This document shows, piece by piece, positions 18,046-56,038 of a stretch of 64,000 nucleotides of DNA. Under the pieces are notes generated by a model. It ran no database searches and was not told the DNA's origin. It was given only the letters and a program-made list of their open reading frames with translations. The translations under genes and the position numbers were made by a program. Position 1 is the stretch's first letter; each line of letters starts with the position of its first letter. This DNA is from Treponema sp. (lineage in GTDB: Bacteria > Spirochaetota > Spirochaetia > Treponematales > Breznakiellaceae): positions 1 to 64,000 of the forward strand of contig JAITUR010000003.1 of assembly GCA_031286205.1 (NCBI GenBank), in the 5' to 3' direction.

Positions 18046-18068
18046 GGCATATAACGCTCTAGGTTAGC
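18046..18068 (-). repeat. left fragment of attC-3 (R' end) cut by the prophage
   Basis: GGCATATAACGCTCTAGGTTAGC is the R' end of an attC, matching positions 60279-60301 with one difference. The sequence then changes abruptly to phage DNA at 18069. The continuation of the same attC is found at 55882-56038, on the other side of the prophage. Confidence 0.85.
18058..18068. other. attL core of the prophage
   Basis: TCTAGGTTAGC, repeated exactly at 55871-55881. Including three preceding bases, the two copies agree in 13 of 14 positions (CGC versus CGT). It lies 2 bp inside the integron R' box. Confidence 0.8.
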
Positions 18069-18130
18069 TACACAAATTTAAAACCTACCCTAAATCCTTA
18101 CCAGACAACAAATTACCAAATTTGCTGTTT

Positions 18131-18156
18131 TTTGAGACAGTAAATTTGAGACAGTA
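18131..18156. repeat. paired 12-bp direct repeats near attL
   Basis: TTTGAGACAGTA occurs at 18131-18142 and 18145-18156. It resembles the TTTGATACAC pair near attR (8 of 10 positions), so these are candidate integrase arm-type or excisionase binding sites (inference). Confidence 0.4.
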
Positions 18157-18258
18157 GCCGTCCTCGACCACGGCTATTCAATCAAGCAATAAGTCCCTTT
18201 TTAGGGCTTTTTGTATACCCCCTCTGGAGTTGGTCGAGACTTCGTGGGGGTTTTTTGT
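18155..18258 (+). terminator. hairpins at the prophage left edge, including two terminator-like stems
   Basis: TAGCCGT/ACGGCTA (18155-18176) forms a first stem. AAGTCCC and AGGGCTT followed by TTT (18191-18212) looks like a rho-independent terminator. CCCCC (18218-18222) with GGGGGTTTTTT (18246-18256) could form a second, with a long loop. They may isolate early phage genes from read-through across attL. Confidence 0.45.
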
Positions 18259-18274
18259 CAGAAGGAGAAAGCGT

Positions 18275-18418
18275 ATGGATGTAATTATTTTATTTATCTT
18301 ATTGCTTATTTGTTTTATCGCTCTGGCGTTAATAGAGCGGTCAATCAATAAAAACATCCAAAAACCGCGTGATCGTGGATTCCCATATTCACGCAAAAAG
18401 AGAAAGAAACCCTCCTAA
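18275..18418 (+). CDS. 47-residue single-pass membrane protein
   Basis: Small early phage protein. One membrane helix (IILFILLLICFIALALI, about residues 4-20) is followed by a strongly basic tail (RKKRKKPS). The ATG at 18275 has the ribosome-binding site AGAAGGAGAAAG; an upstream in-frame start at 18230 would include the terminator stem and is not preferred. I do not recognise it. A host-membrane or superinfection role is possible but unsupported. Confidence 0.55.
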   Translation: MDVIILFILLLICFIALALIERSINKNIQKPRDRGFPYSRKKRKKPS

Positions 18419-18431
18419 AATACTGGCTCTA

Positions 18432-18541
18432 GCCGGGCGGAGTTGTTCCCGGCAATAAGGATCGTTTACCTGGAAGGTAGCTAGCGGTGGGTTTGTCCCC
18501 TTTCAAGACGCTAGAAAGTGGTTCGAATCCACTGCGGTCCA
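18432..18541 (+). ncRNA. tRNA-like structured RNA
   Basis: A perfect T-arm (AGTGG-TTCGAAT-CCACT, 18517-18533) is followed by GCGGTCC. That strand can pair with GGATCGT at 18459-18465 as a 7-bp acceptor stem with two G-U pairs. Between them are a D-arm-like hairpin (TACC/GGTA, 18467-18479) and a 6-bp stem CTAGCG/CGCTAG with a 22-nt loop where an anticodon arm should be. No normal 7-nt anticodon loop exists, so it is not an ordinary tRNA. GCCGGG/CCCGGC (18432-18453) adds a 5' hairpin. It could be a tRNA mimic, a decayed tRNA or part of a leader RNA. Confidence 0.4.
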
Positions 18542-18639
18542 TAACCTTTCCGGAATGAGGGCATATATCGTTCGTTGAACGAGCCCAAAAAAGAAAAGGT
18601 AGTGTATTTATTGATTTATAAATCATTCCGGAAAGGTTA
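18542..18639 (+). promoter_or_regulatory. leader hairpin with 17-bp perfect inverted repeat
   Basis: TAACCTTTCCGGAATGA (18542-18558) is the exact reverse complement of 18623-18639. Inside the loop, GGGC/GCCC and TCGTTC/GAACGA form a second hairpin (18559-18586). The structure ends 8 nt before the AAAGGGGG ribosome-binding site of the next gene, suggesting translational or transcriptional control of that gene. Confidence 0.55.
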
Positions 18640-18659
18640 ATTCTTGAAAGGGGGACAAT

Positions 18660-20993: not shown

Positions 20994-21025
20994 AAGCGGA
21001 GAAAATTGGTTTATTTATCATTTTT

Positions 21026-21162: not shown

Positions 21163-22971
21163 ATGAAAACTATTGAGCTGGATAAAATTATTAGTGAAGA
21201 CAACCGGATGTACACGAAGGACGAAGGGTTTGAGCAGCTTATGAACAGCATAAAGGAATTTGGAATTATTGAGCCGCCGGTTGTCCGGGCGCAGGAAGAC
21301 GGTACATACAAAATCATTGCCGGGCGCCGGCGGATTGCTGCGGTACGGAAATTGACCAAAGGATCTAAAGAAATGCCGAAGGTTAACTGTGTTACAGTCG
21401 ATAAAGATGATCCCAGGGATGATGATGATATTGCGCTTGCGGAAAATGTGAACCGCCAGGCGATGCATCCTTTGGATGAAGCGGTACTATTCTTTAAGAT
21501 GGAATGCCGCGGTCTTTCCGTGAAGGAAATCGCAAAGCTATACGCCCGTAGTCCGCAGGATATTTACAAGCGTCTTAGGCTTATGCGGTTGACGGATGAC
21601 TTAAAAACCGCGTTCCGGGACGGCAAGATGGACATTGAGGCTGCCGCCATTATTGCCGAGCTTCCTGAAGAGGATCAGAATTATTTTTATATGGAGCAAG
21701 ATAATATTAAATGGAAATATCGTGATGACTTTGGTGATGAAGATGGTGTACACAGAACGAGCGGGCAAGAAGCTGCAGAATTTGTACAGAGAAAACAGAA
21801 ATTTAAAATTAAGAAATTAATAAAGGGCTGCGCTGACTGTAAAAAGCGGACACATAATACGAATAACGAACTGTTTGAAGATTATGATCACTTTGACGAT
21901 GTATGTCTTGACGGCGATTGTTACCGCAAGAAATGGTATAACGCGATTGAGAAAGCTTTGAATGAACAGATAAAAACAGATGCGTTGCCTACGGATTACA
22001 AGATATATTTTGCTTCCGGGATACCTGCGGAGCTGTACAAGAAAGCAAGTTTCGTAGAATTCAATGGCACTAAGTGTGAAGTAATGAAGCCGAACAAGTA
22101 TATGTTTACCCATGAAGAAACCAACAGGAAAAAAGATGCTTGCTGGCGCATCCGGGAGCATGGCGACGGACAGATAACGGTTGAACGGATTGGCTATATG
22201 GTAAAAAAGAAAGAAGCGGAGAGGGGTGCTAAATCCGAAAAGAAAGATGATGAAGTCAGTATATACTGCCGGGAAGTACTTGAGGCGGTAGCCGAAAAAA
22301 GAGGGGTTGCAGCTGCGGAGCTTGCGAAGGAGATAAATGGGAGAGGCTTTGCCAGGAATAATGAGATAAAAAATAATATTGATACCCGTATGACAGAGCA
22401 CATTACCGCGCGGCGTATTGAATTGGATAAAAACGGCGCAACGGTGGATTATTTTTCTTTGCTTGTAAGAGCTTTAGATATTTTGTGCAGTGGCTGGAGC
22501 GGCAAATTAGATAAAGAACAGAAAGAAATGTTAAAAAAACTTACCGGGTGCGACGAGCTCATCAAGGTAGGATCTGTTATTCCTGCCGAGGCAGTGCCTG
22601 TATTCCATTTTGTTATCTGGAATATTTTAAGAGAATGGTACGATTATGAGGATATACCCGCTCTGGAAGAATTGGGCAAACTAAAACCCGGCGATAATAT
22701 TTACTTTGACTATTCCGGAATGAGTAAAGAAGAATACAAGGCTGCTTATATGAAGATAGCAGAGGAAGCAACTAATGAAGCATTAAACCCCAAACCTAAA
22801 GCCGAGCTTAATAAAAAAGAAAAAGCAGCGAAGGGAAAAGACAAGGGTGTCCGTAAGTGCCGGATATGCGGCTGTACTGAAGACGACTGCAGCCAGTGCA
22901 TAGAGAAGACCGGCGGACCGTGCGAGTGGGTTGAAAAAGATCTTTGTTCTGCGTGTGTGGAAAATAAATGA
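21163..22971 (+). CDS. ParB/Srx-fold nuclease-like DNA-binding protein
   Basis: A 602-residue protein. Residues 1-105 form a ParB N-terminal domain (GIIEPPVVR, then IIAGRRRIAA and ALAENVNRQAMHPLDEA). A ParB-type helix-turn-helix follows (LSVKEIAKLYARSPQDIYKRLRL is the region, about 120-145). A long middle of unknown fold contains a CxxC region (CADCKKRTHN, later CLDGDC). The C-terminal Cys-rich zinc module is at about 562-602 (CRICG, CSQC, CSAC). No ParA partner is nearby, so a role in phage replication, gene control or DNA binding is more likely than plasmid-type partition (inference). The stop overlaps the next start (ATGA). Confidence 0.8.
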   Translation: MKTIELDKIISEDNRMYTKDEGFEQLMNSIKEFGIIEPPVVRAQEDGTYKIIAGRRRIAAVRKLTKGSKEMPKVNCVTVDKDDPRDDDDIALAENVNRQAMHPLDEAVLFFKMECRGLSVKEIAKLYARSPQDIYKRLRLMRLTDDLKTAFRDGKMDIEAAAIIAELPEEDQNYFYMEQDNIKWKYRDDFGDEDGVHRTSGQEAAEFVQRKQKFKIKKLIKGCADCKKRTHNTNNELFEDYDHFDDVCLDGDCYRKKWYNAIEKALNEQIKTDALPTDYKIYFASGIPAELYKKASFVEFNGTKCEVMKPNKYMFTHEETNRKKDACWRIREHGDGQITVERIGYMVKKKEAERGAKSEKKDDEVSIYCREVLEAVAEKRGVAAAELAKEINGRGFARNNEIKNNIDTRMTEHITARRIELDKNGATVDYFSLLVRALDILCSGWSGKLDKEQKEMLKKLTGCDELIKVGSVIPAEAVPVFHFVIWNILREWYDYEDIPALEELGKLKPGDNIYFDYSGMSKEEYKAAYMKIAEEATNEALNPKPKAELNKKEKAAKGKDKGVRKCRICGCTEDDCSQCIEKTGGPCEWVEKDLCSACVENK

Positions 22972-23660
22972 AGATCCAGAGGTTGACTAAAAGGAACCGT
23001 ATACAGCTGGAGAAGATTTTCTTCAGCTGTATATTATCGGGTGACAGGCTTACAGATTGGCGTTATATAAAAGACACATACAAGGGCATAACATGGCGCC
23101 ACTTTGAGGATAATAAACACCGTGTACTGTGGCGGGTATTGGAATCATTTGATTTGGGTACTGTTTATTCCCGGAAAGAAATTATCCTGCAAGAAAAGTA
23201 CGAAGAACTAAAAGCATCTGTCAGGGAAATTTCAAAGTCCGAAGAGAATAAAGATGAAAAAGACGAATATATCAGGGAGTTAGTATATGCCTGGGAACTG
23301 CAGTATGAAATGGAAATTGCTGAAAAATCATCGGCGCAAGCCTGGCTTGAGCGGGAGCTTGAAAAAACAAACTCCTTCTTCTGTATAGGCGGAAAGGCGT
23401 ATCTCCATGAACTGTATGCGGTGTACCCGGTACTGGCGGCCGCGAACTTATTTGCGAACAGCCTGGGCTTTGTCAGACCGGAAGAACAAAAGCGATTATG
23501 CTGGAACTGCGGTCTTTCGCATGGGGTTCCGCCGCATATTAAGTGCGAGCTCCTTAATAAGATGGTGGACGCATACGACGGCTATGGTTGCGAGTATTGG
23601 CAGGAGTCACGCAAACTGAAGGAAAAAATAATAAAGGCTGTAAATGGGGAAGATGAATGA
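22968..23660 (+). CDS. DnaB-N-like replication protein, tentative
   Basis: A 230-residue protein. The first part and the motif GGKAYLHELYAVYPVLAAANLFAN (about residues 141-164) recall the N-terminal domain of DnaB replicative helicases, but the helicase motor domain is absent. A CWNCG motif with a later Cys (about 187-203) may bind zinc. It lies between the ParB-like gene and the primase-helicase gene with 4-bp overlaps on both sides, supporting a replication role such as helicase recruitment. The family call is weak and rests on a short pattern. Confidence 0.5.
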   Translation: MKIQRLTKRNRIQLEKIFFSCILSGDRLTDWRYIKDTYKGITWRHFEDNKHRVLWRVLESFDLGTVYSRKEIILQEKYEELKASVREISKSEENKDEKDEYIRELVYAWELQYEMEIAEKSSAQAWLERELEKTNSFFCIGGKAYLHELYAVYPVLAAANLFANSLGFVRPEEQKRLCWNCGLSHGVPPHIKCELLNKMVDAYDGYGCEYWQESRKLKEKIIKAVNGEDE

Positions 23661-25234
23661 AGGCTAGAAGAAAAGCGGCGAGCACGGAGCATTACATAAA
23701 TACCGGTTTGAGGGTGAAGAAGTCCGAGAAACGCGAACAGACTGAAGCCGGCCGGCTTGCCGCTTTTATAATCGATATGATACCCAAAGAATATGATGTA
23801 TGGGAAGAATGTGACATAAACGAAGTGCATTTGTCATGCGAGATAATAAAGACCTGCGGCCGCTGGATTCGTTATTGCCCACAGATAGGCTGGATGGTAT
23901 ATAAAGAGGATGAGGGAAGATGGACGAATTACGGCGCGGAGAGCGCTGTACAACGGGTTATAACGCATTTTGGGGAGCTCCTGAATGAGGGCGCTGCATC
24001 AACGAACCCTGGGGAGAAAAGATTTGCGCGGCGAATACTGTCTAGCGCGGGTATCGGGGCAATAAAGAGAATATTAGAAGGCGATGTATCTATCGCGGTT
24101 GATCAAAAGATGTTTGATGCCGATCCGTATCATTTGAACTGCAGGGGTGATATGTACGATTTACGGACAGGTGAGAAGAGGGCTTCGGCTCCGGAAGATT
24201 TATTTTCAAAGAGTACAATTTGCAAGGCGGCGGAACTTGAAAAAATAAAAGAAGGCTGGAAGATGCCCAGGGTATCTAAAATATTTGAAGATTTTTTGGT
24301 AAAGATAACAAGCAAGGAAGGTAAAGCTAGAAGCGACCTTGCTTTTTATTTGCTGTCATGGTTTGGTTATTGTCTTACAGGGGATACCGGCGCGTCGTTC
24401 TTCGTCAATTTCCACGGAATTGGGAAGAACGGAAAATCCGTATTATTAAACCTTATGCTGCAGCTATTCGGTGATTACGCTATGACGCTTCATTCAGATA
24501 TTGTAATAGAAAGATACGCGCAGAGCCAATTTGATGAATCTGAACTAGTAGGCAAGCGCCTTGCGGTTCTTATAGACGCTCCGGAAGGCCGTCTTAATAT
24601 GGATAAATTAAAATCGATAGTTTCCGGCGACCAGATAACTGCAAAGCGCAAGTACCTGGCCAATATGCAGTTTTCGCCTATTTGTAAGATAGCGGTTGGA
24701 TCTAACCCCAGGCTTACGCTTAAGGATACAGGTCTTGCGGTACGCCGGCGAATCCGCATGGTTCCTTTTGATTATGTAGTTTCCGATGATGAAGACGATC
24801 CTAATATCGGGAAGCGGATGTTAAAGGAAGAGGGTTCGGAAATTTTAGCGTTATTGATATGGTTTGCGCATCAGTATTATAAAGAGGGTGAAGGCCCGAA
24901 AGCGTTTCCCGGATGCAAGGTTGTGGATGAGGCGAGCGCGGAGTATATGGAAAGCGAAGACCTTGTAGGTAGATGGAAGAAAGAAAGAACGGAAACTGCG
25001 GAACCGGAGAAATATGAGAGCGCAGGGGACTTGTACGAAGACTTCCGGAAGTGGTGCGATGATGAAGGTGTCCGAAAGAAAATGTCAAAGAATAAGTTTG
25101 GCGAATATCTTACAACTCATGTACCGAATAAAAAGAGAACTGAAGACGGTATAATATACCAGGGGATAAGGTTAAAGCCCCGCCCGATACTGCAGCAATC
25201 CGGACCGCCGACTAAAGACAAGGGCGGCGGATAG
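23657..25234 (+). CDS. D5/P4-type phage primase-helicase
   Basis: A 525-residue protein of the superfamily 3 helicase type used by phages and plasmids to initiate replication. The D5_N region lies before the motor domain. Walker A GIGKNGKSV is at about 254-262. Later motifs include VLIDAPEGRLNMDKLKSIVSG (motif B region), KIAVGSNPRLTL (sensor/motif C) and the arginine-rich end LAVRRRIRMVPFDY. A C-terminal winged-helix-like part follows. No clear N-terminal primase domain is visible. It is the last gene of the early operon, and an AT-rich intergenic region follows that may hold the origin. Confidence 0.88.
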   Translation: MKARRKAASTEHYINTGLRVKKSEKREQTEAGRLAAFIIDMIPKEYDVWEECDINEVHLSCEIIKTCGRWIRYCPQIGWMVYKEDEGRWTNYGAESAVQRVITHFGELLNEGAASTNPGEKRFARRILSSAGIGAIKRILEGDVSIAVDQKMFDADPYHLNCRGDMYDLRTGEKRASAPEDLFSKSTICKAAELEKIKEGWKMPRVSKIFEDFLVKITSKEGKARSDLAFYLLSWFGYCLTGDTGASFFVNFHGIGKNGKSVLLNLMLQLFGDYAMTLHSDIVIERYAQSQFDESELVGKRLAVLIDAPEGRLNMDKLKSIVSGDQITAKRKYLANMQFSPICKIAVGSNPRLTLKDTGLAVRRRIRMVPFDYVVSDDEDDPNIGKRMLKEEGSEILALLIWFAHQYYKEGEGPKAFPGCKVVDEASAEYMESEDLVGRWKKERTETAEPEKYESAGDLYEDFRKWCDDEGVRKKMSKNKFGEYLTTHVPNKKRTEDGIIYQGIRLKPRPILQQSGPPTKDKGGG

Positions 25235-25775: not shown

Positions 25776-26429
25776 ATGGCAAAAACCAAAAGAGAAGAAC
25801 AGGATTTATTCCCGGACGCGCCTTTATGGTGGCAAGGTCTTACAGACCGGCGCAAGTTGTTTGTGGAATTATACTGTACAGATAGAACTTGTTTTCTTAA
25901 CGCGACCGCGGCGTATATAAAAGCGTTCGGGCGCGAAACAAAAAAACTTTCCGAAGCATCGATACAATCCAACGCATCAAGAATGCTGCGGGAACCGAAG
26001 GTAAATATAGCTATCGGGAAACTGATGCGCTCCCTTCAGAACGAAAAAGATAAAATGAGCGAGTTTCAAGTACTGGATGCTTTGAACACTCTATCGTTTT
26101 ACAATCCTGCAGACATTATAGATAAAGACGGCAACCTTGTTAAAAGCCTTGAAGAACTTGGTCCGCTTGCGATGTGTATAACCGGTATAAAGAAAAACAG
26201 GAACGGTTATGAAATAAAACTCTACGACCGAACGAAGTCTTTAGCCATGCTTGGTCATTATCTAAATCTTATAAGACCTGTAGAAGGCAATACAATAGTG
26301 AACCCCGTTGTGTATATCAATGACAAGGAAGACGAGGCTGCGCTTAAAACACCATCTAAACGAAAGCAAAAAGCAATAACCGCAAGCTCCGAAGAAGCCG
26401 AGTACGAATTGATGGGGGCTGCCGTATGA
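25776..26429 (+). CDS. terminase small subunit
   Basis: DNA-recognition subunit of the packaging motor, 217 residues. The N-terminal region (LTDRRKLFVELY, NATAAYIKAFGRE, ASRMLREPKV) matches the helix-turn-helix of Terminase_2-type small subunits. A C-terminal region follows with YDRTKSLAMLGHYLNL, common in this family. It overlaps the large-subunit gene by 4 bp. First gene of the late operon, preceded by a consensus promoter. Confidence 0.88.
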   Translation: MAKTKREEQDLFPDAPLWWQGLTDRRKLFVELYCTDRTCFLNATAAYIKAFGRETKKLSEASIQSNASRMLREPKVNIAIGKLMRSLQNEKDKMSEFQVLDALNTLSFYNPADIIDKDGNLVKSLEELGPLAMCITGIKKNRNGYEIKLYDRTKSLAMLGHYLNLIRPVEGNTIVNPVVYINDKEDEAALKTPSKRKQKAITASSEEAEYELMGAAV

Positions 26430-27883
26430 GCAAAAACATCGTAAAAATGACAGGTTTTGATCAGAGAATTGTAAATACGGTACTTTGGAAGCCGCATGAA
26501 AAGCAATCATTGGCGATAAAGTCAAACGCGTTTGAATTGTTATTCGGGGGAGCTGCGGGCGGGGGTAAGAGCGATTTTCTATTAATAGATTATTACGCCG
26601 GAGTAAATAAATACGCTAAAGCCTGGACAGGCATACTGTTCCGAAGGTCAATGCCGGAGCTTGAAGAATTAAAAAAACGCGCGTGCGAGATATACATACC
26701 GCTTGGCGGACGGCTTACAAACAACAGTCGCGACTTTATATTTCCCAACGGCGCAACGCTGAAGATGAGATATTTGGACAATGACAAGGATGTTCTTAAC
26801 TATCAGGGGCATCAGTATACATGGATAGGGTTTGACGAGTTGGGCAATTACCCTACCGACTATGCCTGGAGATATATGATAACCCGCGCGCGCAGCGCTG
26901 CGGGCGTTCCTTGTTATATGAGGGCGACAGCTAACCCCGGCGGTGTCGGCCATGCCTGGATTAAAACGCGCTTCATTGACGGATTTTCGCCGTACAGAAA
27001 ACATCAAACAATAGAAACCAACGGCATGGTAAAGATACCGATAACGAGATGTTTTATTCCGTCCATGCTGGAAGACAACCCTACCCTTATGAACAACGAT
27101 CCTGACTACGAACACAGGTTGGCGCTGCTTCCCGGACATTTGTATAGAGCGCTTCGGCATGGGGACTGGGATATATTCGCGGGTCAGGTATTTGAAGAGT
27201 TCCGCAGAAGCTCGCATGTAATTAAACCGTTTGCGCTTGAGCCCGGGCAATGGAAAAAGTTTTATTCGTTTGACTGGGGGTATGCTAAACCGTTCAGCTT
27301 GGGCAAGTGGGCAGTAAACAGCGAAGGCAGGATGATCCGTTACGGCGAATGGTACGGGTGCGATAAGGATGAAATGAATGTGGGTATCAAGATGGGGACT
27401 GCGGAAGTTGCAGACAAAGCCTGGAAAATGGCTGTCCTTGAAGGTGTAACGGAAGTTGTGGCGGATACCGCGATGTGGAATAAAGAAGATGATGCTCCAA
27501 GCAGGGCGGAACAATGGGAAGATGCGGGCTTCAAGATGATAAAGGCGAATAAAGACCGTGTTAACGGGAAAGCGATGTTCCACCAGCGGCTGCAGTCAAA
27601 AGATGAGGACGGGCACCCGATGTTGCAGATTTTTGACCATTGCGTTGATTTTATCCGCACTATCCCGGTTCTTACACCCGACCCGCACAAGCCGGAAGAT
27701 GTAAACACAAACCTGGAAGACCATATATACGATGAAAGCCGTTATGCGGTAATGAGTGACTTTGCGCACAATCCCGGTAATGCGCTTAGAAAACAACACG
27801 GCAGTTATAACTTCCGGAGAAAGAAAACAAGTGCTGATTTAGATCCAATAAGAATGTTTAAGGAGGGGCGTTATGGCGGATGA
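26426..27883 (+). CDS. terminase large subunit
   Basis: ATPase/nuclease that packages DNA into the procapsid, 485 residues. The Walker A-like GGAAGGGKSD is at about 40-49 and Walker B-like WIGFDELG at about 131-138. The coupling region RATANPGG(V)GHAWIK follows. The RNase H-like nuclease begins at SFDWGYAKPFSLG with the first acidic residue in place, and TEVVADTAMW and the final acidic region follow. The 3' end overlaps the portal start by 11 bp. Confidence 0.93.
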   Translation: MSKNIVKMTGFDQRIVNTVLWKPHEKQSLAIKSNAFELLFGGAAGGGKSDFLLIDYYAGVNKYAKAWTGILFRRSMPELEELKKRACEIYIPLGGRLTNNSRDFIFPNGATLKMRYLDNDKDVLNYQGHQYTWIGFDELGNYPTDYAWRYMITRARSAAGVPCYMRATANPGGVGHAWIKTRFIDGFSPYRKHQTIETNGMVKIPITRCFIPSMLEDNPTLMNNDPDYEHRLALLPGHLYRALRHGDWDIFAGQVFEEFRRSSHVIKPFALEPGQWKKFYSFDWGYAKPFSLGKWAVNSEGRMIRYGEWYGCDKDEMNVGIKMGTAEVADKAWKMAVLEGVTEVVADTAMWNKEDDAPSRAEQWEDAGFKMIKANKDRVNGKAMFHQRLQSKDEDGHPMLQIFDHCVDFIRTIPVLTPDPHKPEDVNTNLEDHIYDESRYAVMSDFAHNPGNALRKQHGSYNFRRKKTSADLDPIRMFKEGRYGG

Positions 27884-30801: not shown

Positions 30802-31761
30802 ATGGCTACATTAAATATGTCCGATCAAATGACGGCATTGGAAATCGTTAAGCGGGCGAACAATCCCGAAGCTTGGCGAATTATTGAAATTATGTCGCGC
30901 ACAAACGAGATGCTGACCGATGTACCGGCCTACGAAGCCAACAACGGAACAACCAACACGGCTTTAGTGCGTAAGATAAGCCCTTCCGGTCAAACGCGTA
31001 TTTACAACCGCGGTGTCGGCAGAACAGCCACACAGACAAAAAAGGTCGAAGACCGTATCGCAATGCTTGCGGATTATTCGCTGGTTGATGCCTCGATGGT
31101 AGAACATTCGGGGAATGTTAACGCGGCGCGAATGAGCGAAGCGCAGGCGATTATCGAAGGCATGGGGCTTACACAGTCCGAGCTTTTGATTTACGGCGAC
31201 GGCGAGCGGGATGACGAGTTTGACGGACTCATGGCAAGGCTTAACGACCCGAGCAATCCATGTTTTATTGACATGGACGGTACCGGGGACGAGCTTACAA
31301 GCCTCTTCCTTTGCGCTATCGGCAAAAACCAGTTCCATTTGATTTACCCGAAGGGATCAAACTCTGTCGGCGTAAAGCATGTGGACAAAGGTATTGAAAC
31401 CGTAAGAGACGGAAAAAACGGCGAGTACGAAGCCTACAGGAGCTATTTCGAAGCGCAGTTTGGTATAGCAGTTCCGAATCCGGAATCGGTTATCCGTATT
31501 GCGAATATCCCGAAAGACGCTACAGGCGATGACATCGTTGACAAAGTCCTGGAAGCAAAACGCAAGCTGCCCAAGGGCGCGACAACATATGCGATGTACT
31601 CGAACCAGGGGATCCTTATCAAGATTGATAAGGCAGCAAGGGACAAGGGCAATGTGGTCCATACAGCGGCAGATCCGTGGGGTAAGGAAATTACCCACAT
31701 ACGGGAAATCCGCTGCAGACAGATGGATGTAATCCTTGACACCGAATCACGGGTAGCGTAA
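30802..31761 (+). CDS. major capsid protein
   Basis: A 319-residue protein with the pattern of the GP20/GP7-like major capsid family of podoviruses: ALEIVKRANNPEAWRIIEIM, TNEMLTDVPAYEANNGTTN, SEAQAIIEGMGLTQSELLIYGD and the later HFYPKG-like HLIYPKGSNSVG. It sits between the scaffold and a Bbp16-like cement protein, the expected place. An AGGAG ribosome-binding site is present. Expected HK97-type fold. Confidence 0.85.
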   Translation: MATLNMSDQMTALEIVKRANNPEAWRIIEIMSRTNEMLTDVPAYEANNGTTNTALVRKISPSGQTRIYNRGVGRTATQTKKVEDRIAMLADYSLVDASMVEHSGNVNAARMSEAQAIIEGMGLTQSELLIYGDGERDDEFDGLMARLNDPSNPCFIDMDGTGDELTSLFLCAIGKNQFHLIYPKGSNSVGVKHVDKGIETVRDGKNGEYEAYRSYFEAQFGIAVPNPESVIRIANIPKDATGDDIVDKVLEAKRKLPKGATTYAMYSNQGILIKIDKAARDKGNVVHTAADPWGKEITHIREIRCRQMDVILDTESRVA

Positions 31762-32795: not shown

Positions 32796-32996
32796 ATGAG
32801 TTTGAATAATGCTTTTGGCGGAACCGGCGACAGTAATATCAAAAAGATAATCGATATTACCGAAAGGATGGACAGGATTCAAAGAGCGATAGACAAGATT
32901 CGTTACAACGACGAATTACTGGAAGCGCTTCCTGATCTGGTTGTTAAACTAAGCGCGGCAAAAGATGCGTGCATAGCGGAGTTGAAAACACTATGA
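32796..32996 (+). CDS. 66-residue helical phage protein
   Basis: Small, mainly helical, heptad-like protein (IKKIIDITERMDRIQRAIDK). AAAGGGAG precedes the ATG. The stop overlaps the start of the tail tubular gene (ATGA), indicating coupling. Possibly a small connector or adaptor, unproven. Confidence 0.6.
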   Translation: MSLNNAFGGTGDSNIKKIIDITERMDRIQRAIDKIRYNDELLEALPDLVVKLSAAKDACIAELKTL

Positions 32997-43700: not shown

Positions 43701-46700
43701 GAGTAAGCCATTAGAGGAAAGGTCTGAAGCTGCGGTTCATAAGGCGCAGATGTTATTCTCTGACGAGCTACTTGCTCCGCAGGACAGGAAGCACAGGGCT
43801 ACTGCAGAGTTGATAAAACAGGCGGATAAGATTCCCGATGAGGCGCAGCGTAAGAAAGTTATTGCGGATATCCGCAGGCTTAGGGATATGTATAAGGGTA
43901 CTGCCGCCGAGTATAAAGCGCCTAATGGTAATAACAGTTTGTTGCTGGAAAGTCTTGGGGAAAAGACTGGGCAGCAGGCATGGTATGCGGTAAGGACGGA
44001 GAGTTTTAAGGAATGGTTTGGGGACTGGGAGCGGGCTGCGCGGGTAGAGGCGATAGAGAATATTGAGGCTATAAAGGTAAAAGCTGCAGAACATACAAGC
44101 CAAAAAGAAGCGGAAAGTATAATACGCACATTTGGACAAGAGCCTATAACAAACAAGAATGATGATCGTAAAGCGATAATCCCCGTAAATACCATAGGAA
44201 AATTATACGGGCATAAAGGTTATAATATTACAAAAATAATTAAAGAAATTCCCGCTCTTTACGAAACATCTAAACACGGATGGTCTGAATCCGAAAGAGT
44301 AAAACCTGGTCATAAAGTTCGCCCAAATGTTAAGGAATACCATAATTATATAAATAAGTTTAATGATGGAGCAGGCGAATATTTTATAAGGTTTACATTA
44401 CATGAAGAAAAGACAAGGTCGAATAAACCCGGGAAAAACTATATTCATTCGGCTGCTATAAGTAATATTGAAATATATAAAAAAGGCGATAACTTGCAAC
44501 AGATCCGTGAAAAGAGCACGGGTGAAACAAGCACATCGCCTTTCATTGATTTAAGATTAGTCGATTTTTTCAATTCTGTCAAGGAAAATGTTTCGAAAGT
44601 TGTAGATAAAAACGGGGAACCGCAAGCAGATATTTTTATGGAAAATGCGGGGGCATACGGCGATTTAACGCCAAAAACCTTATTCCAGACGGCGTGGCAT
44701 GGGACTGCGAATTCCTTTACAAAGTTTGATAACTCGATGATGGGAAGCGGTGTCGGCAAGCAGCTGTACGGCTGGGGGCATTACTTTACAAGCGAAAGAA
44801 GTATTGCGGATTGGTATAAAAGATCACTGTCGAATGTGTATAACAAGCAGGGAAGAACTTATGAAGTTGATATTCCCGGAGATGAAGTATTCCTGGATTG
44901 GGGAAAGAGCATAGATAAGCAGCCGGAAGCTGTGCAAAAAGTCTTGGACAGGCTTATAACCTGGGATGAAAACGGCAAGAGCAAATATCATTATCAGTAT
45001 AATATCCGTAAATTAAGCGACGGGTATCAAACCTATAAAACGCTTGCTGACGGAAAAATCAAATACGATACTTTGGCGGAAGCGCAAGCCGCGGTTAAAT
45101 CCGAAATAAAAAAGCATTATACGGGGGGAATGTTTTATACAAACCTTGCCGCTACCATTACCCCGAAGAAAGCATCGTTATTGCTGGATCATCTGGGGGT
45201 AAAGGGGACAAAGTACTTTGACCGGGGAACGCCGTATGTAGATGAAATGAACCAGCCGGTCGCCGAGAAGGGGGCGTATAACTATGTAATATACGGCGAC
45301 AGCGATATAAATATACTTCAGACATTTTTCCAGGATGATGAGTTTGAAGCGTTTATGAATGATTATCCGGGTGTTGTAAAGCACGCCGCGAGTTTTGAAT
45401 CTGCGGAAGACCTTGCCGCTTATTACGGGGTATTCGGAGAAATGCCTGAAACCGTGCTACAGAAAGCGAATGACGCAGGTTACTTTGACCGTATTTACAA
45501 AGAAGCGAAAGGCGAACCCGAAACCGGAACTATTCCTGAATATGATTTTAATAAAAATATATCCGCAAAAAAGATAGTTGCGGCATTACGGGCGTATGGG
45601 GTAAGCGCTGCGGACGCGCTTGAAGCTGTCAAGATTGTAAGGAACGAGAAGGGAGATGCGGTATCTTATCTTGAAGAATTGGGAGTATCGCGCATTGATG
45701 CCGAGGCTTACATTGAACATTCAAAGGTATTCAGCCGTCAAGAAATGCTGCAGATGGAAAAAGATGCAAAGCTGGAACATGAAGCGGAACCGAAGACAGA
45801 AACTGTCAAACTTGGTACTGATAATGAAGCGGCTAAAAAGTATTTTGAATCATTGCATGAAAGCGCAAAAGAGATACATTCTGATTTGAAACAAGATTCT
45901 TCTCTGTGGGAAAACATGGAAGCGGAGCTTGCCGGGGAAGGAAGAACCGCCGAAGACTTTATAAACTGGTTTAATACCGATAAAGGCTTTGATGATTTAT
46001 TGTTATTGGCAGCGCAGACGGAAAAAGATGGGGAAGTCCGAGGAGAAACCGAAGCGGAAACCCGCAGGAATAAAGCTGCCGCTGCCGCGGCGAGGGCTGC
46101 ATTTAACAAGAATAACCCCAACTGGGACACAGCGTTTAAGAGCGTACTTGCCCGTAAGAAGGTAGATGAAAAAACTAAAAAAATACTTCGGGGTATGATC
46201 CGCAACCGTCCGCTTCAGTACATGGAAGCCTGGGCGGTTATGAGCGGGGACGATACCTGGCTGCCGAACGAAACCGATGCGCAAAAAATTAAACGGCTGG
46301 ATACTTCCGGGATGGTTGACGAAGAATACCTGCAAAGACAAAGCCCGGAAGAATTAGAAAGAATCGGGCGGCAGTTGGGCAGCGAGAGGATACGGCAAAA
46401 GATACAGGACGGAAGCCTGCGGTTTGATGATCCTGATATGGACAGCTATGAACAGCAGCTTAAAAAAGATCAGTCGGAAACGCAGAAAAAGATTGAAAAG
46501 AAAAAAGAAGATTTAAGCGATTACAAAGAATTGCTGCAAAAAATAGCGGAGAATGAAAAGCGGCATCAGATGATTGTACGGCAAACCGCGCGCAATACTA
46601 CCGATGCGGGAATTGCCGAAATCAAAAAAGAACGCAAGAAGCTTGCGGAAGTCCAGGCGGATTACAGGCGCGCTATTCAGGAAATGGAATATTTAGCCAA

Positions 46701-49533
46701 AGATTTAAACATTACGCAAAGAAATAATTATCAGGAATTCCGGCGGTTATTGCGGGAGCAGACCGAACAGCAAGAGCAGCTGCAGGCGGTGAATGAATTA
46801 AGGGAAATTAAAAAGCGCGATATGCGTATGGTATTACGGCGCGTTGACTTAAAGACGGTGCATGTAACTAATGCGGCTAATATTAAATGGGTGCAGTCGC
46901 ATTTTGACAGTTATCAACTTGCCGCCAAGTGGGTGGGACCGGGAGCCAAGAGTTTACAGCAGCTTTACAATCAATTTATAACAGATGACGAGTACCGCGA
47001 TGCGTTAAGAAAAAGACTGGGCGGGGGTTATTATACAAGCATAGAGCGAACAATTTACAAGGATATAAAAACCGGAGATACCAGGGCATACAGCGAATTA
47101 TCCGCAGAGCAGCGCAGGCGGCTTAAACGAGCGCTTTTAGATAATCAGAGTATCTTTGAAGAATTAGGTATTGATATTGACGAAGATCGGAAACGCTACA
47201 GCCCGCAGGAATACGCGGAGCATGAAGCGTACATGAAAGATTTTATTCCTGCAGACCTGCTTGTAAAGATGCAGGGGCTTATGGAAGACGAGAATGGAAA
47301 CCGCCGTACCAAGATGGAAGACTGGACGGTTGAAGATATGCAGAGGCTTGCCGGCGTTGTCAGTAATCTGCGCAGGGAAGGCAGGGAAAACGAGCAGGCG
47401 CGGAAGGAAGCAAGAAAGCAGCTGCTTGATGAGAGAATGTCTAAAACGCTGAAAGTGCTTAAAGCAAATATGCCGAAGGGTACAAGTCCTGAAGACGCGC
47501 CGTACACAGCCGGTAAAAAAATCGAGGAAGAAAAAATGTCCGGACGGCGCGGGTTATTTTATTCCGTGCATAATGCAAGAAGGTTTTTCAGAAGGCTTGA
47601 AGGGCATAAGGACGGATACCTTTACGATTCGATGACCAGAGCGGAATATGATGCTTTTAACAAGGAATGGGGACACGCTCTTGCAAGACGAGAAAAGGTT
47701 GCGGAGCAGTTTAAAAAATTAGGCATTAAAGAAACCGATCTTGTTAAATATCAATTTGAAATATGGGATGCCAAAGGCACTAAAAAAGCTACGCTGGACG
47801 AAATGCTATCTTTATACTACGCGCAATATAACGAGCGGGCATTCCATGCGGTTGTGTTTGGGAACTTCGCTAGTGTGGAAGACCGCAAAATATTAAAAGA
47901 CTTTGCGGACAATAAAGATTTACACGGACAGATGAATTATGAAGCGGAGATTGCGAAGCGGTACTGGAACGATATGAAAAAGCTTGAAGACTTCTTTGCC
48001 CGGGAAGGAAACGAAAAATACCGCAAGGTTATGGATATTATCGGCAATGATTATGACGAGAATTACCAGAGGCTGAAGGACTTTGTGGCGCGGGAATATA
48101 ACGAGGAGCTTGGAAGCGAAGGTTATTATATGCCGCTGCAGAGGTTAGGGGTAATCCCAAAAACCGAAGAAGATACAAAACAAGCTTTGGCTGACAGCGG
48201 ACTATCGCCGCATATAAACAGGGGCTTTACCAAAGGGCGTGTTGATATACCGTCATTTGAACAACAGGCGGTTCGTATCGGTTTATTTAATATATGGGAT
48301 TCTATGGTTCAGAAACAGGAACATCTTATGGCTTACGATTCCCTTATGAAGCAGACTAAACAAGTTTTTGAAGGTGACAGTAAAACAAGCGAACAGATAC
48401 GAGCGGCGCTCCGAGGCGGCTGGAGTGAAGAATCAATAAAATATATAAAGAAATGGACAAGCGAGCTTGCGGCTCCGCCGGTTAATGAAGATGTTAAAAA
48501 CCTAAATAAGGTGCACAGAATACTGCGCGGACACTTCCCTGCGGCGATGCTGGGCTGGCGTGTTGCAAGTATCTTAAAACAGGCGATAGAAAGTCCGCCG
48601 CCGTTTTTTCAGTTTGTAAATCCCGGCGAGTATTCGGCTGCGGCAATATCCTGTTTAAGCAAAGAAACACGAGACATGATTTACGAAAAAAGCACTTACC
48701 TGAAGGTTCGTTATTTTGATCCCGCAATGGCGGTAATGAAGAATATGGAAAAAGCATACCTTGCGGGGAACATTGGAAAAGCAGAAGCGGCATTTGCAAA
48801 GTTTGAAAATATTGGAATGAAAGGTCAAGAATGGATTGATACGGTATGCGTTATTCCCGGTTGGCTTGCAGCATACAAGAAAAAACTTGCGGAGCTGAAC
48901 CGTACGGTATCTGACAATAAGAGCGAACAGCAGATTGAAAAAGAAGCGGTACATTACGCGGATCAGGTAGTAAGAGACTGCCAGCCGTCATCGGTACTTA
49001 TGGATCAAGCTCTGTTAATGAAAGGGGATAAAAACCCGTTTTACAGAATGCTGCAGCAATTCCAAACCCCGATTGTATCTATATTCCAACAGTTATTTAT
49101 TGATACACCGATTAACTTCAGGAATGGAAGGATACTTGAAGGTCTTTGGACATGGGCAATATACGCGCTTATTGCAATTACCATAGGCGCTATGCGCGAT
49201 GATGAGGATGAAAAGTTTGATCCGAAAAACCGCGCTATCGATGCGCTGGTAATGCCTTTGGAAATGATACCTATGGCAGGCGGACAGCTTTCTTACTGGG
49301 CGGAGAGCTATATAAAAACAGGGAAAGCCAGGACATCAAGCCGCGGTCAATTTCCGGTTGTTGAATCGGTTCTACGCACGGGGAACGCAATATCGGATGA
49401 GGACTGGGCGAAAGCGGGATGGAATGCGCTTGAAGGGTTCATGTATCTGACAGGCGGTCCGGTTGCCGCTAAACGGGATATTGAAAAAGCTGTTGAGGAA
49501 GAAAACCCATGGCGAATATTGGGTATTAAATAA
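40780..49533 (+). CDS. giant polyvalent internal virion protein with zincin and ADP-ribosyltransferase-like domains
   Basis: A 2917-residue protein in the position of T7 gp16. Seen in order: a polar N-terminus; a Gly/Ala-rich membrane-active section (about 235-310, GAAAGSALPGVGTAAGAAEG); and a zincin-like motif FIHEGIHAFTNL at about 816-827 with EKLAHQMERYL later. Then come a region like large polyvalent-protein domains (ESFKEWFGDWE, about 1075) and an ADP-ribosyltransferase-like domain of the ART-PolyVal kind (AWHGTANSFTKF with His at about 1307, YGWGHYFT, ending near 1520). A long coiled-coil part and a C-terminal module with two hydrophobic segments (WTWAIYALIAITIGAM) complete it. It is probably injected with the DNA and acts early in the host. 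The third ART catalytic residue could not be confirmed. Confidence 0.8.
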   Translation: MADLFEREEQHNLFRLPERPEHYKPDPPPNPIAQTQIDPAFRLPESVSEYSTPDSQDRGTYAAEMFQQWREGSEQRREFSDQLKTTHGGTGLSGREIAFLYDMRERGHIDDGEIFKIASSKELGDFIGIDPGFVYNFYDEMWAAISNDRENRFARPQSRWEAINNSIQMAKNSDPLGEMGNRLSALHGQIKTAYGTERDELQKQADELWQRISAIREENERLSRGMPTDALSFILTTTIQSAPYQLRTITGGIKMGTYFGAGSAVVGAAAGSALPGVGTAAGAAEGFVRGFAKGYSVGAFEAGSREMAGTMYIEMIAAGMEQNNARLLSIVGGGINGLIESSLGVVAGAGKSMVKNIAGRTLSQEAQKRIAAAAANNFVSRLGRDIATSAVGKNIVTRTLVEFAKNTVSEGIEEGLQYMVEQAMLAIGDAMQDDPVERNMFMDPQYKAELEMSILGGLAGGLGFGIMGLPLTISGNAATTAQQITDLRELALNISDKEDFRTAARNSPLTGNLSDADIDNIHTSVQTMREAEEATRTEELRQRRLYGSIDQSGEIHREGGGNLYGELSRHVESGGMETGEYVIGSPKKSESNAYAVLEYEKRGDRTEVTGFNIGEAYEGLQEEILQNFANEMGTEINFDGKVYAPVEGAATARRFGFAAEKASGAASARTASGFSFSKQQYTAQDTKADTSAKQSFARQIREAGTQVKGAQVETIVDFYDQVGRKWFGMGFEKFMNRMALNPDQFVTKQDMTDAQIGEWYRSKYSAQELAARGIDLNNLTEEQRQAARESVKGFATPGMDGITKSITAAKNADISTFIHEGIHAFTNLAKAMDPELYQEMMRAAGLDNEVFMQAAPEQQEFMLRDAWEKLAHQMERYLYDGIVSDPVKDLFKKLAEFLKGIVDVLDSRKELSPEIKKLYDELFKDTAQETRQDGSTERSGVKSERSGANIEQSGVKSEQFDIYQDEYDKVISDKSKPLEERSEAAVHKAQMLFSDELLAPQDRKHRATAELIKQADKIPDEAQRKKVIADIRRLRDMYKGTAAEYKAPNGNNSLLLESLGEKTGQQAWYAVRTESFKEWFGDWERAARVEAIENIEAIKVKAAEHTSQKEAESIIRTFGQEPITNKNDDRKAIIPVNTIGKLYGHKGYNITKIIKEIPALYETSKHGWSESERVKPGHKVRPNVKEYHNYINKFNDGAGEYFIRFTLHEEKTRSNKPGKNYIHSAAISNIEIYKKGDNLQQIREKSTGETSTSPFIDLRLVDFFNSVKENVSKVVDKNGEPQADIFMENAGAYGDLTPKTLFQTAWHGTANSFTKFDNSMMGSGVGKQLYGWGHYFTSERSIADWYKRSLSNVYNKQGRTYEVDIPGDEVFLDWGKSIDKQPEAVQKVLDRLITWDENGKSKYHYQYNIRKLSDGYQTYKTLADGKIKYDTLAEAQAAVKSEIKKHYTGGMFYTNLAATITPKKASLLLDHLGVKGTKYFDRGTPYVDEMNQPVAEKGAYNYVIYGDSDINILQTFFQDDEFEAFMNDYPGVVKHAASFESAEDLAAYYGVFGEMPETVLQKANDAGYFDRIYKEAKGEPETGTIPEYDFNKNISAKKIVAALRAYGVSAADALEAVKIVRNEKGDAVSYLEELGVSRIDAEAYIEHSKVFSRQEMLQMEKDAKLEHEAEPKTETVKLGTDNEAAKKYFESLHESAKEIHSDLKQDSSLWENMEAELAGEGRTAEDFINWFNTDKGFDDLLLLAAQTEKDGEVRGETEAETRRNKAAAAAARAAFNKNNPNWDTAFKSVLARKKVDEKTKKILRGMIRNRPLQYMEAWAVMSGDDTWLPNETDAQKIKRLDTSGMVDEEYLQRQSPEELERIGRQLGSERIRQKIQDGSLRFDDPDMDSYEQQLKKDQSETQKKIEKKKEDLSDYKELLQKIAENEKRHQMIVRQTARNTTDAGIAEIKKERKKLAEVQADYRRAIQEMEYLAKDLNITQRNNYQEFRRLLREQTEQQEQLQAVNELREIKKRDMRMVLRRVDLKTVHVTNAANIKWVQSHFDSYQLAAKWVGPGAKSLQQLYNQFITDDEYRDALRKRLGGGYYTSIERTIYKDIKTGDTRAYSELSAEQRRRLKRALLDNQSIFEELGIDIDEDRKRYSPQEYAEHEAYMKDFIPADLLVKMQGLMEDENGNRRTKMEDWTVEDMQRLAGVVSNLRREGRENEQARKEARKQLLDERMSKTLKVLKANMPKGTSPEDAPYTAGKKIEEEKMSGRRGLFYSVHNARRFFRRLEGHKDGYLYDSMTRAEYDAFNKEWGHALARREKVAEQFKKLGIKETDLVKYQFEIWDAKGTKKATLDEMLSLYYAQYNERAFHAVVFGNFASVEDRKILKDFADNKDLHGQMNYEAEIAKRYWNDMKKLEDFFAREGNEKYRKVMDIIGNDYDENYQRLKDFVAREYNEELGSEGYYMPLQRLGVIPKTEEDTKQALADSGLSPHINRGFTKGRVDIPSFEQQAVRIGLFNIWDSMVQKQEHLMAYDSLMKQTKQVFEGDSKTSEQIRAALRGGWSEESIKYIKKWTSELAAPPVNEDVKNLNKVHRILRGHFPAAMLGWRVASILKQAIESPPPFFQFVNPGEYSAAAISCLSKETRDMIYEKSTYLKVRYFDPAMAVMKNMEKAYLAGNIGKAEAAFAKFENIGMKGQEWIDTVCVIPGWLAAYKKKLAELNRTVSDNKSEQQIEKEAVHYADQVVRDCQPSSVLMDQALLMKGDKNPFYRMLQQFQTPIVSIFQQLFIDTPINFRNGRILEGLWTWAIYALIAITIGAMRDDEDEKFDPKNRAIDALVMPLEMIPMAGGQLSYWAESYIKTGKARTSSRGQFPVVESVLRTGNAISDEDWAKAGWNALEGFMYLTGGPVAAKRDIEKAVEEENPWRILGIK

Positions 49534-51403: not shown

Positions 51404-51411
51404 GGTGAAAA

Positions 51412-53508: not shown

Positions 53509-53517
53509 GGGGGAGCT

Positions 53518-53748: not shown

Positions 53749-54137
53749 TGTGGAAAAGAATTATAAGTTTGTTATTGTTATTGGGGTTCTGTGTTTCCTA
53801 CTTGGGGGCGCAGTCACCTTTATCATCTGTAGAGCGTATTCAGGAATTGCTGGACGAGCTGGATCAGAATTTAGCGCAGCAGGCGATCTTAATAGAAACA
53901 TTGCAGACGAGCAACGAGCAAGCCTCAGCGGAGTTGAACGAAGCATTGAGGCTCTTGAAAGAATCCGAGGAATCACTACGGAGACAAATAGCTCTCTCCG
54001 AAAACTTGGGGTGGCTAATAGAGGATCAAGCGACATATCAGCGCTTATTAGAGAAGAAACTAACATTTTGGCGGATTATTTCCGGGATGTTGGCAACGAG
54101 CTTGATAACTACCATAGTGATTTTAGCGACTAATTAG
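53748..54137 (+). CDS. unimolecular-spanin-like protein (frame A of an overlapping pair)
   Basis: A 129-residue protein. The signal-type N-terminus (WKRIISLLLLLGFC) has a Cys at residue 15 that could be lipidated by a relaxed spirochaetal lipobox. A coiled coil follows (about 28-100, VERIQELLDELDQNLAQQA and SEESLRRQIALSENL), then a C-terminal membrane helix (FWRIISGMLATSLITTIVIL). This is the topology of a unimolecular spanin, which fuses outer and inner membranes during lysis. Its entire length overlaps another open frame starting 2 bases later. Family similarity was not tested. Confidence 0.7.
   Translation: MWKRIISLLLLLGFCVSYLGAQSPLSSVERIQELLDELDQNLAQQAILIETLQTSNEQASAELNEALRLLKESEESLRRQIALSENLGWLIEDQATYQRLLEKKLTFWRIISGMLATSLITTIVILATN
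53750..54133 (+). CDS. i-spanin-like protein (frame B, overlapping the previous gene)
   Basis: A 127-residue frame starting at the GTG at 53750, inside the ATGTGG of frame A, and ending 4 bases before it. It has an N-terminal membrane helix (FVIVIGVLCFLLGGAVTFII, about 7-26) and a polar, helical periplasmic part (NIADEQRASLSGVERSIEALE), the build of an Rz-type i-spanin. Both frames share one ribosome-binding site (CTGGAGGG). Overlapping spanins are known, but usually one is nested in a larger gene. Frame B could be chance, yet its composition is protein-like with no stop. Confidence 0.5.
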   Translation: MEKNYKFVIVIGVLCFLLGGAVTFIICRAYSGIAGRAGSEFSAAGDLNRNIADEQRASLSGVERSIEALERIRGITTETNSSLRKLGVANRGSSDISALIREETNILADYFRDVGNELDNYHSDFSD

Positions 54138-55672
54138 GCGGCTTTTTTGACAGTTCGTTTCTTTCGCGCGGTTCCGGACTGTCGAGTCTGTCCGAAAATA
54201 TGCTTATCTAATATTGCAAACAGTTTTTTAATTTTAATAATTAATTTTTTACGGGCTATTCTATCTTTATGAAAATAATTTTTCTCCATATTGGAAGATG
54301 TTTTATGCCCCATAAAATACTCTTCTATATCCCCCAATTCGTTTTCGCCCATTACTGTTTTCCAAAAATGCCTGGAAGAATAAAAACGAATATTCTCTTC
54401 TTTTAACTGCCCTTCGGTATAGCCTATATGTTTTCCTAATTCTGCGCAGGCATCTTTATAAATAGAAGCTCTATTTTTCTTTGCTTTAGATGACTTTCTA
54501 AAGATATAATCATTAAATCCTTTTTTATATTTTTTTGCGTATACAATTATTTTATTGTATAATTTTTCATGTATTGGCAACTCTCTTATTCCGTTTTTTG
54601 TTTTACTTGAAGGAATTTTTAACATAATATAATTATCCATTTTATAAAAATCGCATAATCTAATTTGCTCTATTTCGCAGTTTCGCATATTTGTTGTTGT
54701 AATTATTAATGTAAGCATATAGTGCAAATCATTTTTCCATTTTTTATTCCATGCGCCTTTTAACATATTAGTTTTATAACAACCGGTAACTTTAACATCA
54801 GTTATTTTTAGTACCGGTAATGATGCGCAAGGGTTGATCTTTATATCGCCTGTAATTATTAAATGTTCAAATATTGTACTTACATAACCTAAATAATGAT
54901 TTATCGTTTGTGCTGTAATTCCTTTTTTTATAACTTCCCCTTTTTTATTTTTTAAGTCCAACAAGAGATAATTTTGATATTTTGCCAAAAATGGTGTGTC
55001 AATTTCGTAGATGTTTTTTATTTTCTCCTTTCTTAGATAAGGAATAAATGTATTTATAATATTACTGTGATAGGTATTTCTTGAATCCTCTGAAAGCATG
55101 CGTCCTCTTTTTCTGTCTATTTCTATATACCGTGAGCCGGGGGCGTAATAATTTTTTAACAATCTGTATAATCCGACAGTCTGCCTGCCATATTTTTTGA
55201 AATATACATCCAATATTCTTTCTCTGTTCTCTACTGCAAATTTCTGCGCGGCGAATAAATCGTTTGTATGCGTTGACCATCTTGAGGGTACTACTCTACC
55301 CTCATATATGTACCTTACATAATATGTAAATCCAAGTTTTTTACTCTTTACTTTGCTTAAACTGTATCCTTTGGGAACTCGTTTGGCTATAAACTTTTTA
55401 TTAAATTCCTGTAATTCCGATAATTCATTGGGGAATTTTTTTTCTATTTTTTTCCTGTATTGCTCGATTGATGTATTATTATTTGTCAGCATTAATCCAT
55501 TTTCGAGGCTTTTAAATATATCAAATGTGTTAAATAAAAGGTGTACGCCAGTTGTGGTGGGTATTTTTGTACATGGTATAACTCCAAGATTTACGAGCGC
55601 TATTGTAGCATTTTCGTTAATTTTTAACAAACTTGCCGTTTGACTTAAATTAAGAAATGTATTATTATTCAT
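54134..55672 (-). CDS. int: phage tyrosine integrase
   Basis: A tyrosine recombinase of about 512 residues. The N-terminus has an excisionase-like helix-turn-helix (LNLSQTASLLKINENA). A SAM-like core-binding domain follows. The catalytic part has Arg in TTTNMRNCEIEQ, Lys in PSSKTKNGIRELP, RFYSSRHFWKTV (box II, where the first His of HxxR is Tyr), GHK and the nucleophile Tyr in MEKNYFHKD. The gene lies 199 bp from attR. The ATG at 55672 is preferred; a longer frame to 55756 would run through two regulatory hairpins. Its 3' end overlaps the spanin-like gene by 4 bp. Confidence 0.88.
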   Translation of the reverse strand: MNNNTFLNLSQTASLLKINENATIALVNLGVIPCTKIPTTTGVHLLFNTFDIFKSLENGLMLTNNNTSIEQYRKKIEKKFPNELSELQEFNKKFIAKRVPKGYSLSKVKSKKLGFTYYVRYIYEGRVVPSRWSTHTNDLFAAQKFAVENRERILDVYFKKYGRQTVGLYRLLKNYYAPGSRYIEIDRKRGRMLSEDSRNTYHSNIINTFIPYLRKEKIKNIYEIDTPFLAKYQNYLLLDLKNKKGEVIKKGITAQTINHYLGYVSTIFEHLIITGDIKINPCASLPVLKITDVKVTGCYKTNMLKGAWNKKWKNDLHYMLTLIITTTNMRNCEIEQIRLCDFYKMDNYIMLKIPSSKTKNGIRELPIHEKLYNKIIVYAKKYKKGFNDYIFRKSSKAKKNRASIYKDACAELGKHIGYTEGQLKEENIRFYSSRHFWKTVMGENELGDIEEYFMGHKTSSNMEKNYFHKDRIARKKLIIKIKKLFAILDKHIFGQTRQSGTARKKRTVKKAA

Positions 55673-55687
55673 ACACTGTTTTTCGGT

Positions 55688-55737
55688 ATTAAGAATTATA
55701 TCTTTAATAATTCTTAATTTTACCCCTTTTTGGGGTA
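55688..55737 (-). promoter_or_regulatory. int promoter region with operator-like palindrome and second hairpin
   Basis: A 12-bp perfect inverted repeat, ATTAAGAATTAT/ATAATTCTTAAT (55688-55699, 55707-55718). A - strand TATAAT (55700-55695) lies within it, 23 bp before the int ATG. TACCCC-TTTTT-GGGGTA follows at 55721-55737. The repeat would place a repressor on the -10 box. Confidence 0.45.
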
Positions 55738-55746
55738 GGGGAAATA

Positions 55747-55767
55747 TTTGATACACCTTTGATACAC
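55747..55767. repeat. paired 10-bp direct repeats near attR
   Basis: TTTGATACAC at 55747-55756 and 55758-55767. Similar to the TTTGAGACAG pair near attL, so candidate arm-type sites for integrase or excisionase. Confidence 0.4.
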
Positions 55768-55812
55768 TACCCGAATTTACGAGAATTTTGTTAAAAATTC
55801 GTAAAAAAAGGG

Positions 55813-55841
55813 TTGACAGTATATTGTTTTAGTGGTAAAAT
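55813..55841 (+). promoter_or_regulatory. rightward promoter facing attR
   Basis: TTGACA (55813-55818), 17-nt spacer, TAAAAT (55836-55841). It points out of the prophage into attC-3. In the circular phage it would read across attP into the left-end early genes. Confidence 0.5.
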
Positions 55842-55870
55842 TAATATATATAAGGATTTGGAGCTAGCGT

Positions 55871-55881
55871 TCTAGGTTAGC
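55871..55881. other. attR core of the prophage
   Basis: TCTAGGTTAGC, identical to 18058-18068. To the left is phage sequence (GGATTTGGAGCTAGCGT); to the right attC sequence continues (AACGGTTTTGTAGCCC). Confidence 0.8.
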
Positions 55882-56038
55882 AACGGTTTTGTAGCCCGGA
55901 TAAGCGAAACCGAAGGTTTTGCAGGGCTGTAAAAATGTGGTGGAGCAAAAACCCACAAAGGGCGATAGCCCGACTGGGTTTTTGCGGAACCCGAACCGCC
56001 CTAATAGGGCGGTGAGCATATACCGTTTGTTAGGCGAC
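55871..56038 (-). repeat. right fragment of attC-3 with R'' end
   Basis: Contains the internal arms (TTTTGTAGCCCGGATAAG, GCAAAAACCCACAAAGGGCG) and the R'' end GTCGCCTAACAAACGG on the - strand (56038-56023). Joined to 18046-18057 it forms a complete attC of about 180 bp closely matching attC-6. Confidence 0.85.

Follow-up and report, generated by a model that had tools for sequence, protein, structure and literature searches.

A Treponema podovirus-type prophage whose tyrosine integrase probably uses an integron attC site as attB

Introduction

Can an integron attC site serve a tailed phage as its chromosomal attachment site? The question is raised by a prophage in 64,000 nucleotides of Treponema sp. 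DNA (contig JAITUR010000003.1; this whole stretch is called the window below), the two ends of which adjoin different parts of an attC. Cassette arrays of integrons are usually thought to be acted on by the integron integrase and no other enzyme. If a family of phage integrases recognizes the same inverted-repeat site, it would link two tyrosine-recombinase systems on one DNA site, and would give phages many attachment sites that travel with cassettes. The system also allows a direct test of lysogeny freezing cassettes versus driving them from a phage promoter and, if the mechanism proposed here is true, it would provide a recombinase that acts on attC as duplex DNA, whereas recombination of this site normally requires the folded single strand.

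Results and Discussion

General features of the prophage

The prophage was originally predicted at 18046-56038. The element is real and its better limits are 18058-55881, where it is flanked on both sides by TCTAGGTTAGC. Its predicted identity as a tailed phage was borne out: terminase, portal/connector, major head protein and tail proteins, which together define a podovirus-type tailed phage, were all detected, as was a primase (Table 1). A tRNA-like sequence (GGATCG...GTGGTTCGAATCCAC...CGGTCC) is located at 18462-18545 in the left end of the phage and is conserved near 680-760 in L141, an IMG/VR phage contig; ARAGORN made no call. A tRNA as attachment site was ruled out, since the prophage ends contain no tRNA.

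Table 1. Features of the prophage and of its flanks, in window coordinates
Feature	Position	Strand	Remarks
Left neighboring cassette gene	17558..18013	-	no known family
attL	18046..18068	-	attC R' box (GCGTTATATGCC, minus strand) and 11-bp shared core 18058-18068; read directly
Left arm-type direct repeats (predicted)	18131..18153	+	TTTGAGACA, two copies (18131, 18145)
Left-end phage gene	18660..19043	+	127 aa; homolog 82% identical in L141
ParB-like protein	21163..22971	+	
Primase/helicase	23657..25234	+	
Terminase small subunit	25776..26429	+	
Terminase large subunit	26426..27883	+	
Podovirus-type head-tail connector	27873..29549	+	PF12236
Major head protein	30802..31761	+	
Two tail proteins	32969..36438	+	phrog_394, phrog_376
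Giant protein, polyvalent protein	40780..49533	+	2917 aa; ART-PolyVal match, weak
Tyrosine integrase	54134..55756	-	540 aa; SAM-like domain; PHROG integrase; R358, K385, R462, H484, Y494 conserved in family
N-terminal HTH_17/excisionase-like segment fused to integrase	55487..55672	-	weak here, E 0.075
Right arm-type direct repeats (predicted)	55747..55766	+	TTTGATACA, two copies (55747, 55758)
Outward-facing sigma70-like promoter (predicted)	55813..55841	+	TTGACA-17-TAAAAT, between integrase and att core
attR	55871..56038	-	shared core 55871-55881, then attC L', stem, L'', R'' (GCCTAAC)
Right neighboring cassette gene	56064..57035	-	lipoprotein-like, no known family; own attC split by prophage
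Intact attC upstream of lipoprotein cassette	57096..57276	-	
Intact attC used for comparison	60280..60440	-	same CTCTAGGTTAGC core

The split attC

The flanking 11 bp, read directly at both ends, form a short identical core, which lengthens to CG[C/T]TCTAGGTTAGC if one mismatch is allowed. To the left of 18058 the DNA reads ..GGCATATAACGC, the R' end of an attC on the minus strand; to the right of 55881 there is a complete attC stem and then the R'' end, to GTTAGGC at about 56033. Both junctions are therefore as first described, with R' on the left and the remaining attC on the right. The further claim that joining the flanks rebuilds a full attC was upheld: the joined sequence aligned through the join with an intact attC of the same genome (G000:C76, about 50301-50492) at 91% (176/194 positions), and also with the intact attC at about 60280-60440 of the window. 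Its folding was better than that of shuffled sequences (z -3.95), and the cassette genes on both sides of the prophage lie on the minus strand, as expected.

The flanks are complementary parts of one attC, with the caveat that L' (GCTAACC) in the joined site shows incomplete complementarity to L'' (GGTATATG), in contrast to C76 and attC57. Because the two are not cognate, the attC may already have been recombinant before the insertion. The flanking cassette was intact in no second genome, its attC alone being shared.

Because strict detection of attC by its hairpin failed to recover known sites, motif scans and BLAST comparison were used instead. The motif scans of the window placed attC half-sites at 17390-17560, at the two prophage ends, and at 56022, 57098-57258 and 60285-60422, the rest being isolated chance matches.

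Integrase, with predicted arm sites and outward promoter

An integrase with conserved catalytic residues adjoins the att core, its start lying about 115 bp away, and the sequences of solved structure nearest to it include Int of entries 6en0, 6emy and 6emz. The HTH_17/excisionase-like match is clear in homologs (E to 6e-7) and is a separate ORF in the related locus L060 (E 3e-9). The motif TTTGAKACA is present in two copies at each prophage end; these four copies, out of only six matches in the window, are predicted to be arm sites. Direct-repeat pairs were also observed in the related loci L068, L071, L072, L073 and others. Judged from the sequence, such paired end repeats are the layout of a lambda-type attP. 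The placing of the integrase and candidate arm sites at the prophage ends, as in the original prediction, was thus confirmed.

The predicted outward promoter, TTGACA-17-TATAAT-like, recurs at the corresponding place in the family loci L052-L077. Its -35 hexamer (TTGACA) is exact in 19 of the 21 family members compared, with a -10-like hexamer 16-18 bp away, and the promoter would read outward across att into host DNA; in several family members its score was no better than those of shuffled sequences. In the circular phage this promoter is predicted to read into the left end and, in insertions at an R' half, into the next cassette in the sense direction.

Related integrases at attC sites

A search of other genomes for this integrase beside attC sites had been suggested as a check. 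Single-protein queries gave no relatives in viral contigs, genome contigs, phages or plasmids; relatives there were reached by profile search only. Relatives were identified in many genomes of its family, the named ones being nearly all Treponema or Spirochaetaceae MAGs (one record is labeled Proteiniphilum), and on eight IMG/VR contigs. We read a termite-gut origin of these relatives from the isolate names. As for the target, attC-like sequences are present in 90 of 200 family genomes.

Twenty members had a recognizable att end, and a member was counted when the distance from its conserved outward -35 element to an attC half-site was no more than 150 nt. On this basis the ends of 12 of the 20 coincide exactly with an attC simple site, where 0.035 would be expected per locus (P 3e-13), the break always lying 55-97 nt from the conserved outward TTGACA; besides the window prophage, the check had thus placed 11 members of the family at attC halves. 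The counts exclude L059 (attC beside an N-truncated integrase), L065, L070 and L078 (no flank), and the more distant L051, L063, L064, L066 and L067, in which the att end could not be placed. Both junctions are visible only in the window prophage; the distal ends of the IMG/VR relatives had no attC, these contigs being probably fragments.

Insertions in attC were found in both arms and in both orientations. L053, L054 and L055 have a complete attC stem that breaks at GGAACG/TTTT, with the L' half, arm and orientation as in the window. In L056, L057, L062 and L073 the integrase-proximal half is R', which is the opposite orientation, while L072, L074, L077 and L071 (the last cut by a contig edge) have an R'' half, so that the other attC arm was used. 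The integrases of L074 and L077 are close and the attCs belong to different cassettes, which indicates independent insertions.

Three other accounts of these joins were considered, two of which are addressed by the counts. The joins could be assembly artefacts, or could result from later homologous recombination between similar attC repeats after the phage had entered elsewhere; the sequences are indeed MAGs, attC stems in one genome are over 90% identical, and L' and L'' of the joined site match poorly. However, repeat-driven mis-joins would leave the attC whole and not split it between L' and R', and in 12 independent assemblies, drawn from two collections, the break is within an attC half-site and its distance from the integrase is fixed, which makes this account highly improbable. 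Coincidence, in which an integrase family of low specificity is frequent at attC only because attCs are abundant, would fit the presence of non-attC members in the family. Against it, outer attC half-sites were observed 4 times in 567,582 background positions and at 8 of the 20 att ends, the other four ends adjoining whole attC stems, and we regard coincidence as exceedingly improbable.

Relatives at non-attC sites had been named as what would count against attC as the attachment site. Such relatives exist: L052, L058, L060, L061, L068, L069, L075 and L076 (about 30-47% identity) have no attC at the corresponding place, and L052, at 46% identity, is among the closest relatives. The objection therefore holds in part, eight relatives being elsewhere and 12 of 20 at attC, and site choice varies within the integrase family. 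Attribution of attC use to a single clade was unsupported, attC and non-attC members being interleaved in the tree. Taken together, attC targeting is a common habit of the integrase family, recurrent though not universal. L141, which carries the homolog of the left-end gene, also sits at a different, non-attC site. A PF00589 search found no integrase on this contig, nor was one found in its far 9 kb, and it is therefore no evidence that site choice depends on the integrase alone.

Two further loci were observed. In L059 (395-735) an intact attC is followed by an N-terminally truncated integrase; this is the end of a prophage, decayed or recombined, within an array. In L060, an MNT/HEPN-like toxin-antitoxin pair located some 660 to 1600 bp upstream of the integrase lies between loxP-like palindromes (ACTTCGTATAACATTACGCTATACGAAA) and may be a cassette of another kind that phages use as target.

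A possible integron recombinase of the host

A recombinase of about 400-430 aa resembling XerA/IntI is encoded at G000:C89:724-1989 (L046) and in L148, L150 and L161-L167. It scores over the cut-off of NF040815 and below that of TIGR02249, and lacks the IntI-specific insert. In most of the genus genomes checked, the distance between this gene and attC arrays is no more than about 1-4 kb. From its sequence and position, the enzyme may be what actually serves these Treponema as integron integrase, and the host may have an active integron.

Such an enzyme could have captured the circular phage as a giant cassette, recombining an attC/attI-like site of the phage with attC. Besides the position of this recombinase, it would agree with this account that the insertion falls in the IntI core site and that the L053-L055 junctions are exactly at G/TT, the IntI cut position. 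IntI, however, performs no strand exchange in the R''-L'' arm of folded attC, the arm in which L071, L072, L074 and L077 are inserted. The phage side in the window has no GTT triplet (AACGCTAGC), and no canonical IntI above the NCBIfam cut-off was detected in this genome or in 40 genus genomes. Nor was the pattern of an IntI-captured cassette found, namely G/TT of R' on both sides and an intact attC on the element, there being no attC inside its ends. Since, in addition, the attC association follows a single family of phage integrases and predicted arm sites are present in the prophage, capture by the integron integrase is considered very unlikely.

Proposed mechanism of integration

The local anatomy and the 11 further members at attC halves support the original claim that the tyrosine integrase of a tailed phage uses attC as attB. 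We put at about 0.87 the probability that this is a temperate podovirus-type tailed phage whose own arm-binding tyrosine integrase uses the integron attC simple site as chromosomal attB. The attP of the circular phage would have a core copying the attC L'-spacer (GCTAACCTAGA, minus strand) with two arm-type repeats on each side, and its junction is predicted to read ..GTGTAGCTAACCTAGAACGCTAGCTCC... The integrase would align this core with the inverted repeat L'-spacer-R' in attC, to which the integron integrase also binds, and would presumably itself perform both this recombination and excision. The attC substrate would probably be double-stranded, and crossover would fall within the shared 11 bp.

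The two halves of the attC simple site (R'-L' or R''-L'') form an imperfect inverted repeat around CTAG or CCGG, and this symmetry would allow both orientations. With many copies of such an imperfect palindrome per genome and two half-sites per attC, insertion could take place in either arm and in either orientation. In the window R' and R'' are now 38 kb apart, and the lipoprotein cassette would not be excisable by its attC until the phage leaves.

A broader proposal is tentative, its chances falling a little short of even. A tyrosine integrase lineage of tailed phages from termite-gut Treponema would have specialized on attCs as repeated, mobile attachment sites, used as duplex in either arm or orientation. 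Its prophages would reversibly inactivate cassette sites, and the outward promoter would transcribe flanking cassettes in lysogens and, after circularization, cross attP into the left end.

Comparison with known systems

IS1111-attC insertion sequences and group IIC-attC introns target attC specifically. These are small elements that use a transposase or retro-homing, without site-specific phage integration or attL/attR. Group IIC introns associate with integrons (PMC7923331).

The original prediction knew of no described tailed phage with attC as attB. A phage-related precedent does exist: the PLE satellites of V. cholerae integrate into VCRs (attC) through a large serine recombinase (PMC5481146, PMC8844924), with proof in vitro (PMC6002521). 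In the open-access full texts searched, no tailed phage was found whose tyrosine integrase works at attC; to this extent the novelty stood. PLE1-type elements likewise use repeated chromosomal-integron attCs as attB and may so land beside different cassettes, and the related PLE2-type integrases use another site (PMC5481146, PMC8844924), as some Treponema relatives do. PLE, however, is a satellite whose recombinase is of the large serine type and whose RDF is supplied by phage ICP1, whereas the Treponema element is a tailed phage with a tyrosine recombinase in place of a serine one, predicted arm sites, a fused excisionase-like domain, and use of both attC arms.

The reported excision points of Vibrio anguillarum prophage Va_90-11-286_p16 coincide with predicted attC sites (PMC9892861), so that this is also a tailed prophage with its ends at attC. 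In that case the repeat is 68 bp long and lies in two whole attCs, so that part of the integron is carried into the phage, and IntI activity is suggested by the authors (PMC9892861); in the Treponema case a single attC is split at the recombination core, and the integrase is of the phage's own type. Integrons are not mentioned in a published survey covering 38 prophages of Treponema (PMC11144348).

With integrases of the lambda/Tn916 type the Treponema enzyme shares its position beside the att core, paired arm-type repeats, a short shared core, the R..K..R..H..Y residues and an excisionase-like HTH. It differs in that attB is an integron attC, in that the usual first histidine of HxxR reads Y (FYSxRH), and in that many family members have the HTH as part of the integrase itself. 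In L058, L060-L062, L065, L068 and L069, small ORFs including an HTH_17 excisionase-like one precede the integrase; several of these loci have a ribbon-helix-helix-like gene whose promoter carries TTACTAGTAA repeats, probably an operator.
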